DNA of 64,000 nucleotides from NCBI GenBank assembly GCA_003211315.1, contig QCTC01000002.1, forward strand, positions 1 through 64,000. The letters run 5' to 3'. The notes below the pieces were generated by a model, which saw only the letters and a list, made by a program, of their open reading frames with translations, made no database searches and had not been told where the DNA came from. This stretch comes from Prochlorococcus sp. AG-670-O17 (GTDB lineage Bacteria; Cyanobacteriota; Cyanobacteriia; PCC-6307; Cyanobiaceae). Below are positions 4,539-13,830 of the stretch, in pieces. Every line of letters starts with the position of its first letter. Position 1 is the stretch's first letter. Both the position numbers and the translations under genes were made by a program.

Positions 4539-6125
4539 ATGAGTAAAAAATTACTAAAAAAAGAGAGAGATCCTTCAATATTAATACTAGATTTTGGATC
4601 TCAATATTCTGAATTAATTGCAAGGAGAATAAGAGAAGCAGATGTATTTTCTCTTGTAGTTAGTAACTTTACCTCTATAAAGGAGATTCAAGATATAAAT
4701 CCAAAAGGGATTATTTTAAGTGGTGGCCCAAGTTCTGTTTATGAAGACAATGCACCTAATTGTGATGCAAAGATTTTTGACTTAGGGATTCCAGTTTTGG
4801 GTATATGTTACGGAATGCAATTAATGGTTAAAGAATTAGGAGGTGAAGTAACTCCAGCAATTCATAAAGCTGAATATGGAAGAGCTCCAATAAATATCGA
4901 TTGTGAAAGTGAATTGCTAACTAATGTCCAAGATAAATCCATTATGTGGATGAGTCATGGAGATTCTATAAATAATTTGCCTGAAGGATTTATTAAAATT
5001 TCTCATACAGAAAATACCCTGCATGCTGCAATATCAAATAAACAAAAGAAATTATTTGGTGTTCAATTTCATCCTGAAGTTATTCATTCAGAATTCGGAA
5101 TGACAGTTATTAAAAACTTTGTTTATTCTATTTCTAAATGTAAAGCCGATTGGACAACTGCAACTTTTTTAGAAGAAACAATTCCACGAATTAAGCAACA
5201 AGTAGATGATAAGAAAGTTTTACTTGCTCTTTCTGGTGGCGTAGATTCATCAACTCTCGCTTTTCTTCTCAATAAAGCTATTGGTAAACAGCTTACGTGT
5301 ATGTTTATTGATCAAGGCTTTATGAGAAAAGGGGAACCTGAATTTTTAATGGAATTTTTTGATAAAAAATTTCATATAAAAGTTGAATATATTAACGCTA
5401 GGGAAAGATTTATTAATAAACTAAGTGGAATAACTGATCCAGAAGAAAAACGCAAGATTATTGGTAGAGAATTTATTAGAGTTTTTGAAGAAGAGAGTAA
5501 TAGACTAGGTCCTTTCCAATATTTAGCTCAAGGGACTCTTTACCCAGATGTTATTGAGAGTGCTGGAACGAATTTAGATCCTAAGACCGGTGAGCGAATC
5601 GCAGTAAAAATAAAAAGCCATCATAACGTAGGCGGTCTGCCAAAAGATTTACAATTCAAATTAGTTGAACCATTAAGAAAACTTTTTAAAGATGAAGTAA
5701 GAAAGGTTGGGGGTGCTTTAGGATTGCCAGATGAAATTATAAAAAGACATCCATTTCCTGGTCCTGGCTTAGCAATAAGAATTTTGGGTGAAGTTTCTCA
5801 TGAAAAACTAAACTGTTTGAGAGATGCAGACTGGATAGTAAGAGATGAAATAAAAAAAGCAGGTCTTTATAATCATATTTGGCAAGCATTTGCCGTACTT
5901 TTACCTGTTAAGACTGTCGGGGTAATGGGAGATAAAAGGACTTATGCTTGGCCAATAGTTTTACGATGCGTATCAAGCGAAGATGGTATGACGGCTGATT
6001 GGTCGAGAATTCCTTATGAAACCTTAGAGAGAATTTCTAATAGAATTGTTAATGAAGTAGAGCAGGTTAATAGAGTTGTTTTCGATATTACTAGTAAGCC
6101 TCCAGGAACAATTGAGTGGGAATAA
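4539..6125 (+). CDS. guaA: GMP synthase (glutamine-hydrolysing)
   Basis: GATase motif [11 protein letters not shown]-pyrophosphatase LSGGVDSS; C-terminus KPPGTIEWE*. Confidence 0.98.
6104..6125 (+). repeat. Candidate left attachment repeat (guaA 3' end)
   Basis: AGGAACAATTGAGTGGGAATAA; 20/22 identity with 13050-13071, last 15 bases identical. Confidence 0.75.
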
Positions 6126-6165
6126 CAGATAGGTTATAAACCTAGTTATAGGCGCAAAAAGTTGG

Positions 6166-6235
6166 TTTCACGTAGAATATTTACTACCTATTTGCAATGG
6201 TTTTCGATGGCGGTCTTTCACGTAAGTTTCACGTG
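6166..6235 (+). repeat. Left subterminal TTTCACGTR motif cluster (candidate recombinase arm sites)
   Basis: TTTCACGTA 6166-6174, TTTCACGTA 6216-6224, TTTCACGTG 6227-6235. Confidence 0.55.
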
Positions 6236-6380
6236 ATGCAAAAAAGTCCGTCTCTATAGAGAAATCATAAAATTTTATTAAAAATAAAAAAAGATACACA
6301 AAGTGTTTACCTTCAAGAAATTTAAGTTTTATAAAGGTTGTCATTTAGCACATAAATGAGAATAAAATAATTTACTTCAA

Positions 6381-6455: not shown

Positions 6456-7508
6456 ATGTTTTGGAATAGATTTCAATTTTCTAGAGACATAGGTATTGAC
6501 TTGGGTACTGCCAATACTCTTATTCATGTATCTGGGAAAGGCGTAATTCTGGAAGAACCTTCTGTAGTAGCTATGGATTTAGAAGAGGGAACTCCTTTGG
6601 CAGTAGGTGAAGAAGCAAAATTAATGCTTGGAAGAACCCCAGGAAATATAAGAGCAGTAAGACCTCTAAGGGATGGGGTTATTGCAGACTTTGACGCAGC
6701 GGAACAAATGATAAAAACTTTTATTCAAAAATGTAATGAAGGAAAGGGTCTTTTAGCTCCAAGAATAGTTATTGGTATTCCAAGTGGCGTTACCAGTGTT
6801 GAACGAAGAGCAGTTCGAGAAGCAGGATTAGCAGGGGCACGGGAAGTCTATTTAATCGATGAACCTGTAGCTGCCGCAATAGGAGCTTCTTTGCCAGTAA
6901 CGGAACCAATTGGAACTATGATCGTTGATATTGGCGGTGGAACAACTGAAGTAGCAGTATTGAGTCTTGGAGGAACAGTTGTAAGTGAATCTCTTCGAAT
7001 AGCAGGAGATGAAATAAATGAATCAATAGCTACCTATCTTAAAAAAAAGCATAATATGGTTGTTGGTGAAAGAACATCAGAAAAGATAAAAATTAAAATA
7101 GGTTCTGCTTTCCCTGATGACAGTTTTGACAATACATCTTTTGAAGTTAAGGGATTACACTTATCTTCCGGTTTACCAAGATCTATTGCTTTAACTGCAG
7201 GAGAAATTAGAGAGGCTATGACTGATCCTCTTAGTAAAATAATTGAAGCTATAAAAAGAACTCTCGAGCGAACTCCTCCTGAATTAGCGGCAGATATTGT
7301 TGAGAGAGGAATCATGCTCGCGGGAGGTGGAGCTCTAATAAAGGGAATTAATGATTTAGTAACTCAAGAAACTGGAATTTTTACTCACATAGCAGAAGAT
7401 CCATTGTTATGCGTAGTTAATGGCTGCGGAAATGTACTTGATGATTTCAGAAGACTTAGGAGGTGTGTAGACACGGTTGATTTAGGAACTAATTCAATAA
7501 GGACTTAA
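6456..7508 (+). CDS. mreB: MreB rod-shape-determining actin homologue (island copy)
   Basis: MFWNRFQFSRDIGIDLGTANTLIHVSGKGVI...; IVDIGGGTTEVAVLSLGG. ATG at 6456 preferred over the track start at 6387. Confidence 0.93.
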   Translation: MFWNRFQFSRDIGIDLGTANTLIHVSGKGVILEEPSVVAMDLEEGTPLAVGEEAKLMLGRTPGNIRAVRPLRDGVIADFDAAEQMIKTFIQKCNEGKGLLAPRIVIGIPSGVTSVERRAVREAGLAGAREVYLIDEPVAAAIGASLPVTEPIGTMIVDIGGGTTEVAVLSLGGTVVSESLRIAGDEINESIATYLKKKHNMVVGERTSEKIKIKIGSAFPDDSFDNTSFEVKGLHLSSGLPRSIALTAGEIREAMTDPLSKIIEAIKRTLERTPPELAADIVERGIMLAGGGALIKGINDLVTQETGIFTHIAEDPLLCVVNGCGNVLDDFRRLRRCVDTVDLGTNSIRT

Positions 7509-7829: not shown

Positions 7830-8186
7830 TTATTTTTCTAATAAATAAAATTTCTCTTCACCAACTTTGTCTGGTTTCACTATTTTACAACCTTTATCTT
7901 TTTCTAAATCGCAATCTTTCGAGGCAGCAACTGTTTTCCATGAACAAACTTTTTCTTCTGAGTATTCTTGTTTAATCGTCCACCCATCGTTGATATACTT
8001 TTCGAGATTACTATTTTCTCCACATGAAACTGTAATTTCAATACTATTTTCTTTTTTAATACTTTCTTCTGATGATTGTATTCCAAAACTGTTTTTAATT
8101 TCAGTCGCTTTTTTCTCCAATATTTTGCAACCGCCAACTAGAAATAGGATCATAAATATATAAAGTAATTTTTTATATTCTTTCAT
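7830..8186 (-). CDS. putative lipoprotein
   Basis: Signal peptide with lipobox LVGGC; start overlaps the murA stop (ATGA). Confidence 0.7.
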   Translation of the reverse strand: MKEYKKLLYIFMILFLVGGCKILEKKATEIKNSFGIQSSEESIKKENSIEITVSCGENSNLEKYINDGWTIKQEYSEEKVCSWKTVAASKDCDLEKDKGCKIVKPDKVGEEKFYLLEK

Positions 8187-9808
8187 TTATCTATCATGCA
8201 AGTATTAAATTTTCTATTCGCTGTTTCTGTAAAGCCAAGATCCAAAAACTTTATGTAGTCACTATTTTTGTCCTTACATATTTTTTCTTTGTTTTCAATT
8301 TGTATTTTTCTCTGTTCTTGAATTAATATTTGATTTCTGAAGTTCTCGATAAATTTATAAATATATGGAATAGTTGCTATGAAGAATCCAATAAAAAATG
8401 AAAAAGCAAATGCCGAAGTATATTTTTTAGAGTTATTTTTAAGACTAATTTTTGCAAAATAATTATTTAGTTTAAACATAATTTTAATTTTTTTTTTAAT
8501 TACTATCGCTGCTCCAATTTCTTGTAATTTTGTAGAGAAATTTTCGTATCCTCTTTCTAAATGCTCTACCCCTCCAATCAAAGTTTTCCCACCTGCTGAA
8601 AGTCCTGCAAGAGCCAATGCAGCCGAAGCCCTTAAATCAGATCCTAGAATTACACTTCCTTTTAAGTTTTCAACCCCGACTACTGTTGCAATATTATCTT
8701 TTAAAGTAATGTTTGCCCCCATACGATTTAGCTCTTTAACATGATGCATTCTATTTTCAAATACTGTTTCTTTAATTTTTGAAATACCATTTGCTGTTGC
8801 CATTAAAGCCATAAAAGGTGCCTGTAGATCAGTTGGGAAACCAGGAAATGGACTTGTCGTCATATCAACTGAATTTAAAATTTGATTGGGAATGATTTTT
8901 AAACAAAAATCTGAATATTCGAACTTGCAGCCACAAAGTTCTAGTTTGTTAATTACTGCTTTTAAGTGATTTGGTTCGCATGGGAAAAGACTAATTGTTG
9001 ATCTTGTTATTGCCGCAGCAAGTAAAAAAGTACCTGCTTCAATTCTGTCAGGTATTACTGTGTAATCGCATCCTTTTAGGGATTCAACTCCTTCAATTGT
9101 TATACATTCAGATCCCGCACCTTTTATTCGTGCACCCATTAGATTCAACATGTTTGCTAAATCTACAATTTCTGGCTCCTCTGCTGCGTTGTTTAATATA
9201 GTTTTCCCTTTAGCTAAAGATGCTGCCATTAATAAAGTCTCAGTGGCACCTACACTTTTGCATTTAAAATTGATTGATGATCCCAACAATCTTTTTTTGG
9301 GATTAATTACTTTAGCTATTAAATAATTATTTCGGTATTGAAATACAACTCCTAATTTTTTCAGTGAATTTATATGTTCATCGATTGGTCTGGATCCTAT
9401 CGAACATCCTCCCGGTAAGGGTATCTTAGCTGTTCCAAATCTTGCAAGGATTGGACCAATACAAAAGAAACTCACTCTAAGGGCATGATATAAATCAAAA
9501 AATAAATCTTGAGGTGGAATGATAATTTCTTTAGTATTTATTGTTAATTGATTTGTATTCGATTTTATATTTATACCCATTGCAATTAATAATTTAGACA
9601 TAATTGCAACATCTGAAATTTGAGGAACATTAAAAAGATTTATTTCGCCTTTAGAAAGAATTGACGCTGCCATTAGGACTAGAGCAGAATTTTTAGCACC
9701 ACTAATTTTTAAATGCCCTTCAAGGGGGTTGCCTCCTTTTACTTCGATATAATTTTTGAAAAAGTAATCGACTCTAGGGGGTTGAAGAGTTTTATTTTGT
9801 ATTTTCAT
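8183..9808 (-). CDS. murA: MurA-like UDP-N-acetylglucosamine 1-carboxyvinyltransferase with C-terminal TM/charged extension
   Basis: EPT fold sequence (GAKNSALVLMAA, LPGGCSIGSRPIDEH, FPTDLQAPFMAL, HLERGYENF) followed by about 90 extra residues including SAFAFSFFIGFFIATIPYIY. Confidence 0.9.
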   Translation of the reverse strand: MKIQNKTLQPPRVDYFFKNYIEVKGGNPLEGHLKISGAKNSALVLMAASILSKGEINLFNVPQISDVAIMSKLLIAMGINIKSNTNQLTINTKEIIIPPQDLFFDLYHALRVSFFCIGPILARFGTAKIPLPGGCSIGSRPIDEHINSLKKLGVVFQYRNNYLIAKVINPKKRLLGSSINFKCKSVGATETLLMAASLAKGKTILNNAAEEPEIVDLANMLNLMGARIKGAGSECITIEGVESLKGCDYTVIPDRIEAGTFLLAAAITRSTISLFPCEPNHLKAVINKLELCGCKFEYSDFCLKIIPNQILNSVDMTTSPFPGFPTDLQAPFMALMATANGISKIKETVFENRMHHVKELNRMGANITLKDNIATVVGVENLKGSVILGSDLRASAALALAGLSAGGKTLIGGVEHLERGYENFSTKLQEIGAAIVIKKKIKIMFKLNNYFAKISLKNNSKKYTSAFAFSFFIGFFIATIPYIYKFIENFRNQILIQEQRKIQIENKEKICKDKNSDYIKFLDLGFTETANRKFNTCMIDK

Positions 9809-10492: not shown

Positions 10493-10972
10493 ATGCCTAC
10501 TAAGCTTGATAGGGTACAGGTTCTTTTTCAGAAAGATTTATTTAAAAAGCTTAAGGTAATTGCAAAAATTGAGCGCAGATCGTTATCTAGTATGGTTGGA
10601 AGCATTGTAGAAGATGCAATGAATTCTAAAAAATATCAATCTCTTTTATCGAAGGCAAAGTCAGATGATTTAAAATCAAAAATTGATCAAAGTAAACTAT
10701 TAATTAATGAAATTTTAAAATCTAAGAGTTCAAATCAATCAGATATTGATGAAAATTCTAAATTAAAACAAATTGAAGATATACTTTCATTAATATCAGA
10801 ATCCAATAAAGAATCATTAGAGGAACCAGTGGGAAAAGATTTATTATTAGTAGAAGAAGCTTTGAAACCAGACGGTTTAATTGAAGAATTAGAATTGGAA
10901 ACAGATTATAAGATTAATAAAATGAATGTAATGCTCAGTAAAATTAATAAAAATAAGGATTTAAATGTTTAA
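10493..10972 (+). CDS. ribbon-helix-helix/CopG-like DNA-binding protein with a long acidic C-terminus
   Basis: MPTKLDRVQVLFQKDLFKKLKVIAKIERRSLSSMVGSIVEDAM; ATG at 10493 preferred over the track start at 10442. Confidence 0.65.
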   Translation: MPTKLDRVQVLFQKDLFKKLKVIAKIERRSLSSMVGSIVEDAMNSKKYQSLLSKAKSDDLKSKIDQSKLLINEILKSKSSNQSDIDENSKLKQIEDILSLISESNKESLEEPVGKDLLLVEEALKPDGLIEELELETDYKINKMNVMLSKINKNKDLNV

Positions 10973-11890: not shown

Positions 11891-12829
11891 TTAAATAACA
11901 CTTACCCCTGTAAACGTTTTGATATTATCTATAGTTTCTTTTGGAGTTTTTATAAGATCTTCATATGTAACTTCTATTAAATTGTCCTTAGGAATAAGAT
12001 TTTTCATTATTTGCCATTTATCTAATATGAAGGATCTAGTAAACTTTGCATCTTTCTCTGCGTTCCCAAGATATGGAATAAAACCAAATTCTTTATTAAA
12101 TGATTTGATAGATTTTTCTATACTTTTCACATGATCGTATTTACGTTCAATGTAAATAAATTTTGAGTTGGGAAATAACTCAAGTAATAAGTCAACTCTC
12201 GTTGTAAATGCTGGAGCTTTATTGATAAAAACTTTTCCAGGTAAACCATCATGAATCCATGCCCATTCAAGAAGTAATTTTAATTTTTTTTTGAAATCTA
12301 ATGTAGCTTTCCATTTGTACCATCTTTCTAAATCCTTAGATAATGACTTTCCAAGACCAATTGATGTTGGAGGATGTTCGCAACTCAATCTCATTAATGC
12401 AATATCTAACTCTTGAGGTCCCTCTGCTAATAATGGGACCCAATCAAAAAATCTATTTTTATAAGATGGTATAAATTTGCGAAAAAGTTCTTTAAATATT
12501 AAGGCTGCCTGAGGGCAACATGAAAACGTATTTTTTATTGTAGCTGCTTTAGTAGCTTTAACTATTTCTGTGTGGAGGTATGTTGTTCCACTTCTCCATG
12601 CACCTATAATAAAAATTGGATCAGGCATATTCTTTGGCTTCTTGTAAAGAATTTTTTGCAACCAATAAAGAGGTTCAGCCAACCAACCGAGTGCAATATT
12701 CTGGAATAAATAAAAAGAAATAATAGGAAATCTATTAGCTTTTTTTAACAACTCAAACTGAACAGAAGGTCTTAAGCATCCAATAATAATTAAGCGTGGA
12801 TTGAAAAACAATAATCTATTTATATCCAA
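11891..12829 (-). CDS. sulfotransferase family protein
   Basis: PAPS-binding P-loop-like FIIGAWRSGTTYLHTEI; C-terminal VTYEDLIKTPKETI. Confidence 0.85.
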   Translation of the reverse strand: MDINRLLFFNPRLIIIGCLRPSVQFELLKKANRFPIISFYLFQNIALGWLAEPLYWLQKILYKKPKNMPDPIFIIGAWRSGTTYLHTEIVKATKAATIKNTFSCCPQAALIFKELFRKFIPSYKNRFFDWVPLLAEGPQELDIALMRLSCEHPPTSIGLGKSLSKDLERWYKWKATLDFKKKLKLLLEWAWIHDGLPGKVFINKAPAFTTRVDLLLELFPNSKFIYIERKYDHVKSIEKSIKSFNKEFGFIPYLGNAEKDAKFTRSFILDKWQIMKNLIPKDNLIEVTYEDLIKTPKETIDNIKTFTGVSVI

Positions 12830-12963
12830 AATAAAGATTATCTATGGAACTTTCGATAAGTCAATCAGTACTTATTGCTTTTGTAAGATACTCAAAATAA
12901 TCTTTACATCTCTATGAAAGTAAAGTAATAAATATTTTTTCTTATGGTTCGCTGCCTACTAGG

Positions 12964-12995
12964 TTTCACGTGGGTTTTACGTGGCGGAATACGTG
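12964..12995 (+). repeat. Right subterminal TTTCACGTG motif cluster (candidate recombinase arm sites)
   Basis: TTTCACGTG 12964-12972, TTTTACGTG 12975-12983, GAATACGTG 12987-12995. Confidence 0.55.
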
Positions 12996-13049
12996 TTATA
13001 ATATGTTCAGACCCATTGATATAACTGTCTTTTTTATTAACCTTTTTGG

Positions 13050-13071
13050 AGGGACTATTGAGTGGGAATAA
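13050..13071 (+). repeat. Candidate right attachment repeat (displaced guaA 3' end)
   Basis: AGGGACTATTGAGTGGGAATAA; in frame GGG ACT ATT GAG TGG GAA TAA = GTIEWE*. Confidence 0.75.
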
Positions 13072-13116: not shown

Positions 13117-13830
13117 ATGGATGAAACTATTAAATTAAGTAGGTCTACTGTTGAAAAATATCTTAATTGTCCTAGATGTTGCGTTCTTGATAAAAAGCAT
13201 AAAATAAAACCTCCATCATTACCATTTACTTTAAATATTGCTGTAGATAATTTATGTAAAAATGAGTTTGATTATTATCGTGATAGACAGGAATCTCATC
13301 CTTTATTTATTGAGCATAATATCGATGCTATACCTTTTAAACATAAAGATATAGATACTTGGAGAAGCAATTTTAAAGGAATTAGATATAAATCTACTGA
13401 ACATAATTATGATTTTGGTGGTGCGGTGGATGATGTCTGGCAAAAAAAGAATGGAGAGTTGATTATCGTTGATGTAAAAGCAACATCAAGAAATAATTTT
13501 GATTGGTTTGAAACTTTTAATAAATATGATTATGCAAAAGCATATAAAAGACAATTAGAAATGTATCAGTGGTTATTTAGAAAAAATGGTTTCAAAGTTG
13601 CAGATGAGGCCTATCTTCTTTATTTTAATGGGAAAAAGAATGAGAAATTTTTTAATAATCAGTTAAAGTTCGATGTGCATTTTATTAAGTTAGATTGTTC
13701 TTCAGCATGGGTAGAAGGCAAAGTTATTGAAACAGTAAAACTTCTCAGATCTAATTTGTTCCCTTCACCATCTTTTAAATGTGAATATTGTAATTATTTA
13801 AAAAAGCGTTGGCAGTTGTCAAAAAATTAA
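13117..13830 (+). CDS. PD-(D/E)XK nuclease superfamily (RecB/Cas4-like) protein
   Basis: GGAVDDVW...LIIVDVKATS...RQLEMYQWLF; N-terminal CPRCC and C-terminal CEYC cysteines. Confidence 0.7.
   Translation: MDETIKLSRSTVEKYLNCPRCCVLDKKHKIKPPSLPFTLNIAVDNLCKNEFDYYRDRQESHPLFIEHNIDAIPFKHKDIDTWRSNFKGIRYKSTEHNYDFGGAVDDVWQKKNGELIIVDVKATSRNNFDWFETFNKYDYAKAYKRQLEMYQWLFRKNGFKVADEAYLLYFNGKKNEKFFNNQLKFDVHFIKLDCSSAWVEGKVIETVKLLRSNLFPSPSFKCEYCNYLKKRWQLSKN

Follow-up and report, generated by a model that had tools for sequence, protein, structure and literature searches.

Insertions at the 3' end of guaA have been described for GIsul2 (CR2-sul2) and related guaA islands of Enterobacteria, where the att core is GAGTGGGA, and elements of the GIsul2 type consist of tandem sub-units parted by an internal attLR, and the integrase can move a sub-unit alone (PMC9376610). 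In Prochlorococcus, tycheposons are described as tyrosine-recombinase integrative elements that reside at seven tRNA genes, carry cargo and remodel genomic islands (Hackl et al. 2023, as cited in PMC10872708). The locus analyzed here shares with GIsul2 the guaA 3' end as its target, the core GAGTGGGA and the arrangement in tandem units, but hosts and cargo are different, and neither families of arm-repeat sequences (arm words) nor gene-free cassettes of 138–148 bp are among the features of GIsul2 in the sections of that report consulted. With the tycheposons it has in common that tyrosine-recombinase integrative elements with cargo remodel Prochlorococcus islands; the target, however, is the protein-coding guaA instead of a tRNA gene, and the integrases share just 21–23% identity with the more distant ones of the genus, distinctions drawn against the second-hand description of tycheposons. 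No report of guaA islands in picocyanobacteria was found in the literature searched, with subscription papers mostly outside it.

In the window, i.e. the whole stretch of 64,000 nucleotides that was analyzed, the 3' end of guaA at 6104–6125 is repeated at 13050–13071, 6,946 bp downstream. The open reading frame of guaA (GMP synthase, 4539–6125, plus strand), for which genus-mates hold genes of 87–98% identity in the same place, terminates in the left copy. Both strings are present exactly as the initial annotation had given them, each reads G-T-I-E-W-E-stop, and the two mismatches between them do fall on third codon positions and are synonymous here. They concern the Gly wobble (6107/13053) and the Thr wobble (6110/13056), the Gly-Thr codons being GGAACA in the left copy and GGGACT in the right one. 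An exact core of 15 bp, ATTGAGTGGGAATAA, is found at 6111 and 13057 and nowhere else in the window. A chance repeat was ruled out, as 0.34 matches to ATTGAGTGGGAATAA are expected in 64 kb even with up to two mismatches allowed, and as an empty junction could be rebuilt. A tRNA as the target was likewise dismissed, for none lies near the site, and the tRNA or tmRNA genes that ARAGORN finds in the window are those at 32.9 and 42.0 kb. Note that synonymy does not hold generally: right copies at the guaA site also read AAAACC, AGTTCC, GGTTCT, AGAAAC or GTGACT, and the right half, which is not translated, is thus free of coding constraint. The silent Gly and Thr differences fit a recombinase whose binding tolerates variable positions, rather than coding selection.

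The host lineage is Prochlorococcus, the close guaA relatives being Prochlorococcus single-cell genomes. In the closest unoccupied strains, G010 and G015, a PD-(D/E)XK gene follows guaA within at most 45 bp. The same nuclease-like gene (13117–13830, plus strand, PF12705) is the first host gene to the right of the site in the window and serves as its right anchor. When the window flanks were joined across the core, the product matched the region downstream of guaA in G010 and G015 with 96.7–96.8% identity over about 755 bp, and the 6,946-bp segment between the copies is missing from these closest strains. This makes the segment an insertion with the repeat as its exact boundaries; as evidenced by the empty sites and the rebuilt junction, an island at the guaA 3' end has its right attachment site at 13050–13071, as had been proposed. 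The insertion regenerates the gene, as is characteristic of guaA-targeted integrative elements.

The left end of the inserted cassette (6126–6163, plus strand) is of the type CAGATAGGTTATAAACCTAGTTATAGGCGCAAAAAGTT, common to the loci L075, L078 and L080, and variants of it are found at most left ends. It is followed by a single copy of the left arm repeat, GGTTTCACGTAG (6164–6175, plus strand), where L075, L078 and L080 retain the pair GGTTTCACGTGGGTTTCACGTAG; with its left arm cut down to one repeat relative to L075, the window copy may be disabled. An additional arm-like pair with a period of 11 bp, TTTCACGTAAG TTTCACGTGAT, is located at 6216–6237 (plus strand). On the opposite side the pair GGTTTCACGTG GGTTTTACGTG at 12962–12983 (plus strand) repeats the word of the left arm about 74 bp ahead of the core. 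The cassette then ends on ...TGTCTTTTTTATTAACCTTTTTGGAGGGACT (13025–13056, plus strand), the element's half of the att site, which is also present in L075, L080, L085 (at 12965) and L088 (at 20543), and as a variant in L129 (at 15257).

Between these ends the cassette carries extra copies of mreB (6456–7508, plus strand; PF06723 and NCBIfam MreB) and murA (8183–9808, minus strand; NCBIfam murA), the latter with a membrane-like C-terminal extension; two additional cell-wall genes are hence combined on one cassette. Searches of the same genome gave 87% identity to its other mreB on contig C12 and 53% identity to its other murA on contig C20. The remaining cargo comprises a ribbon-helix-helix (RHH) DNA-binding protein (10496–10972, plus strand; PF07878, E = 3.5e-6), a sulfotransferase-family protein (11891–12829, minus strand; PF13469, E = 5.9e-22) and small unknowns, among them a lipoprotein-like open reading frame (7830–8186, minus strand) that matches no Pfam or NCBIfam family. 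An integrase was found neither in the window cassette nor in its own genome, an assembly of 82% completeness; the cognate integrase is borne by other guaA cassettes. A phage origin of the window cassette was considered and rejected, with matches in phage databases all short (at most 4% of the query), 67–69% identical and confined to murA or mreB, and with no match to the integrase among phage records.

Cassette DNA is better conserved between loci than the host DNA upstream of it, with identities of 96.7% versus 85.6% for L088, 96.4% versus 88.3% for L085 and 97.1% versus 90.7% for L080, which supports a recent horizontal spread of the cassette. In G010, where the guaA site is empty, the window cargo is present with 95.9% identity and has a core other than that of guaA, ATTATTGTGTAGGAATAA, at its end, beside an unrelated flank (L155:5340–5400, contig C25), and this suggests that the same cargo sits at a second target besides guaA. 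A similar end was seen on the reverse strand of L165 near 4514 (G021). At a further locus (L077:11585–11695) a footprint of 111 bp of the window type has its two ends joined at the arm repeat and lacks the right core, as if the arm repeats had recombined with each other.

The initial annotation had taken the two mismatches as the mark of a native guaA tail in the right copy, and had proposed to compare strains that lack the island. This comparison reversed the assignment. Both empty-site strains of the window's clade, G010 and G015, read GGAACAATTGAGTGGGAATAA, i.e. the GGAACA of the left copy, and an empty-site tail that matches the left copy is one half of what the annotation itself had named as speaking against its reading. 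GGAACA is also found in most occupied strains of this clade. The GGGACT of the right copy, preceded by TGTCTTTTTTATTAACCTTTTTGGA, also closes this type of cassette on the right in L075 and L080, recurs inside the L085 array and in the second cassette of L088, and appears as a variant in L129, whose host clade carries GGAACT. As cassettes of this type carry it on the right in other backgrounds too, GGGACT is cassette DNA and travels with the cassette.

An allele table of 104 distinct guaA loci, divided into clade A, that of the window, and clade B, was used to locate the strand exchange; note that the loci share descent, and that P values throughout this analysis are therefore optimistic. In clade B the host form of the Glu wobble and stop (GAG TAA/TAG) is present in 22/22 empty sites, in 7/62 left copies of occupied sites and in 15/18 right copies (Fisher P = 1.5e-8), while the host Thr wobble is found in 53/62 left versus 9/18 right copies (P = 0.003). 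For clade A the host Thr wobble is retained in 15/18 left versus 1/7 right copies (P = 0.003). Across the 104 loci, the Glu wobble and stop are of the cassette type on the left and of the host type on the right, and this allele linkage places the strand exchange inside the core, in the stretch bounded by the Thr wobble and the final Glu wobble. In L115 and L145, host GAGTAA is joined to right ends whose Ile codon is ATA, which moves the left bound beyond the Ile codon and leaves GAGTGGGA, the core of GIsul2 (PMC9376610). The crossover is thus bracketed to about 8 bp, from the Ile wobble to the Glu wobble, and the putative 7-bp overlap is most likely GAGTGGG (6114–6120, plus strand), flanked by a TATT-like and an AATA half-site.

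The attL core, GGAACAATTGAGTGGGAATAA (6105–6125, plus strand), accordingly carries the host allele GGAACA 5' of the crossover and is identical to the sites of G010 and G015, and the last codons of guaA, the integration target, are host DNA up to the crossover, with the last Glu wobble and the stop codon contributed by the cassette according to the allele statistics. In the attR core, GGGACTATTGAGTGGGAATAA (13051–13071, plus strand), the core search, the empty-site alleles and the rebuilt junction assign the 5' part to the element and the 3' part to the host. The idea that the element supplied the end of guaA and displaced the host end to the right is consequently correct for the stretch 3' of the crossover, but not for the Gly and Thr wobbles. 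Within the window the displaced host Glu wobble and stop are invisible, since both copies end in GAATAA.

The guaA 3' end is occupied in 80 of the 104 loci. Cassettes differ between most strains, several in a row are common, and they are arranged head to tail: with at most one mismatch allowed, 41 internal core sites were counted on the plus strand and none on the minus strand of 251 kb of island, and none in 1.12 Mb of flanking DNA. In silico, 68 cassettes were excised with sizes from 138 bp to 9.5 kb, the minimal ones of 138–148 bp consisting of two ends and one arm pair without any gene. In the arrays of L081, L118, L083 and L061 the integrase gene always resides in the guaA-proximal cassette, and we note that new cassettes seem to arrive next to guaA, as the arrays suggest.

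A typical cassette has tandem repeats with a period of 11 beside the core, detected in 20/50 left and 33/50 right arm zones versus about 2% of control stretches. The repeated word varies (TTTCACGTG, TTTCCCTCA, TTTCCCGTG, TTTGTCACG, TTTGTTGCG, TTTTACGTG, TTACACGTG, CTCACC), and left and right arms of one cassette match each other, with a mean best 20-bp match of 16.2 versus at most 14.2 in 20,000 shuffles, and of 15.6 versus at most 14.3 in 50,000 shuffles after de-duplication. Where L038 is compared with L109, L115 and L145, one backbone is found with the word switched at both ends together. When circularized, the order of P arms, 75 bp, core, 45 bp and P' arms is that of a lambda-type attP, with arm repeats matching across the core; at the left end of the window cassette they are reduced. 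Features resembling the lambda system are the arm repeats flanking the core, the putative overlap of 7 bp and the additional N-terminal domain of the integrase; unlike in lambda attP, one core is common to co-resident elements with many different arm words.

Proteins with a PF00589 domain and about 450–490 amino acids are encoded within the guaA islands of G009, G021 and G027. In a search of 267 genomes of the genus and 400 of the family, guaA was directly upstream of the integrase in 15/15 fetched matches with at least 35% identity. The layout recurs in the elements of the other Cyanobiaceae genera, and in several of these the left and right arm words agree. PF00589 is the sole domain detected in the guaA-linked integrases of cyanobacteria. 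The integron-integrase model was matched at no more than 19 bits versus a cut-off of 265 bits, which speaks against an IntI-type integrase. In a predicted structural model (mean pLDDT 78, pTM 0.52) a helix succeeds the N-terminal strands, and the fold matches that of tyrosine recombinases, lambda Int among them. For 10 loci with arm sequences read by eye, arm-word similarity tracks the N-terminal 101 alignment columns of the integrase (partial Mantel r = 0.64, P = 0.0008), in contrast to the rest of the protein (r = 0.01, P = 0.45). The covariation and the model suggest that the N-terminal domain may bind the arms. Distant tyrosine recombinases of about 505 amino acids (L173–L176 in G068, G171, G178 and G237) are located away from guaA; the more distant integrases of the genus have 22–25% identity, and no tRNA was found near them in the stretches fetched. 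Considered with the hallmark recombinase and replication genes of tycheposons in view, the large guaA element of L061 (4429–8736) encodes an integrase, an RHH-like small protein, a small serine resolvase and a protein that matches DUF5906 weakly, below cut-off, and looks like a satellite-type replication module.

Sequence comparison establishes the site, the reversed allele assignment, the occupancy, the arrays, the matching of arm words, the link of integrase and guaA, and horizontal spread. As a joint explanation we consider it highly probable that 13050–13071 is the attR of a non-autonomous cassette at the guaA 3' end that was moved by a lambda-type tyrosine recombinase. This recombinase would recognize the conserved guaA codons I-E-W-E and exchange strands within GAGTGGG, positioned by the 11-bp tandem arm repeats about 45 bp to the right and 75 bp to the left of the core. 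guaA would be left intact, its last Glu wobble and stop swapped for those of the cassette and the host end shifted rightward. In the right copy, the 5' half GGGACT would be a cassette half-site whose likeness to guaA comes from the recombinase having to bind it, and which differs where binding is tolerant, wobble positions included; head-to-tail arrays would be built by repeated insertion. An integrase that uses the TTTCACGTG arm word, which is also the word of the L179 element, probably mobilized the window cassette, and this movement would have occurred in trans.

An element that brought the whole guaA tail, both mismatch positions included, and left the displaced native tail as the right copy would account for a left copy that is in frame and completes guaA, and for the host origin of the right copy 3' of the crossover. 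The empty strains with GGAACA nevertheless refute this for 13053 and 13056, GGGACT moves with the cassette into other hosts, and the clade A Thr wobble (15/18 left versus 1/7 right) points the same way, so that we regard it as extremely improbable. We also find it very unlikely that RecA-type homologous recombination or an ectopic duplication swapped the region in, with the 22-bp repeat being incidental. Solo footprints such as that of L077 do resemble deletions between arm repeats, and homologous recombination in the flanks could spread cassettes, but the cores at cassette boundaries have one orientation (41 versus 0), the empty sites are precise and the integrase family is confined to guaA.

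A different question concerns the protein that reads the arm words. The window cassette itself encodes an RHH protein, and the minimal cassettes of 138–148 bp retain arms without any gene; both would be compatible with binding by an accessory factor, be it an excisionase or the cargo RHH protein, in place of the integrase N-terminal domain. Against this, the arm word covaries with the N-terminal region of the integrase once the remainder is controlled for, and the spacing fits P and P' arms, making an accessory factor a rather doubtful candidate.

The guaA 3' end of picocyanobacteria may be an integron-like platform, on which cassettes with and without genes are stacked head to tail and moved in trans by integrases that share one core; with a private 11-bp arm word per integrase, the word would be the address that determines which integrase moves which cassette. 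We judge the chances of this extended reading to be about even. As in integrons, a tyrosine recombinase adds mobile cassettes head to tail at a single platform site. Differences from integrons are that a host gene end, furnished with arm repeats, serves as the arrayed att site, that the integrase is located inside a cassette, and that cassettes hold multiple genes and reach 9.5 kb.

The analysis corrects a misreading that is easily made, since the element rather than the host can be the source of wobble differences in a displaced repeat. The relation of arm word and integrase N-terminal domain constitutes a testable code that would predict which cassettes an integrase can mobilize, and it points to integrases for site-specific insertion in cyanobacteria that leave guaA undisrupted. 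For Prochlorococcus itself, the analysis provides a base-level map of the place at which foreign genes enter the genome of a very abundant photosynthetic organism, at one conserved gene end that is occupied in about three quarters of the loci examined.
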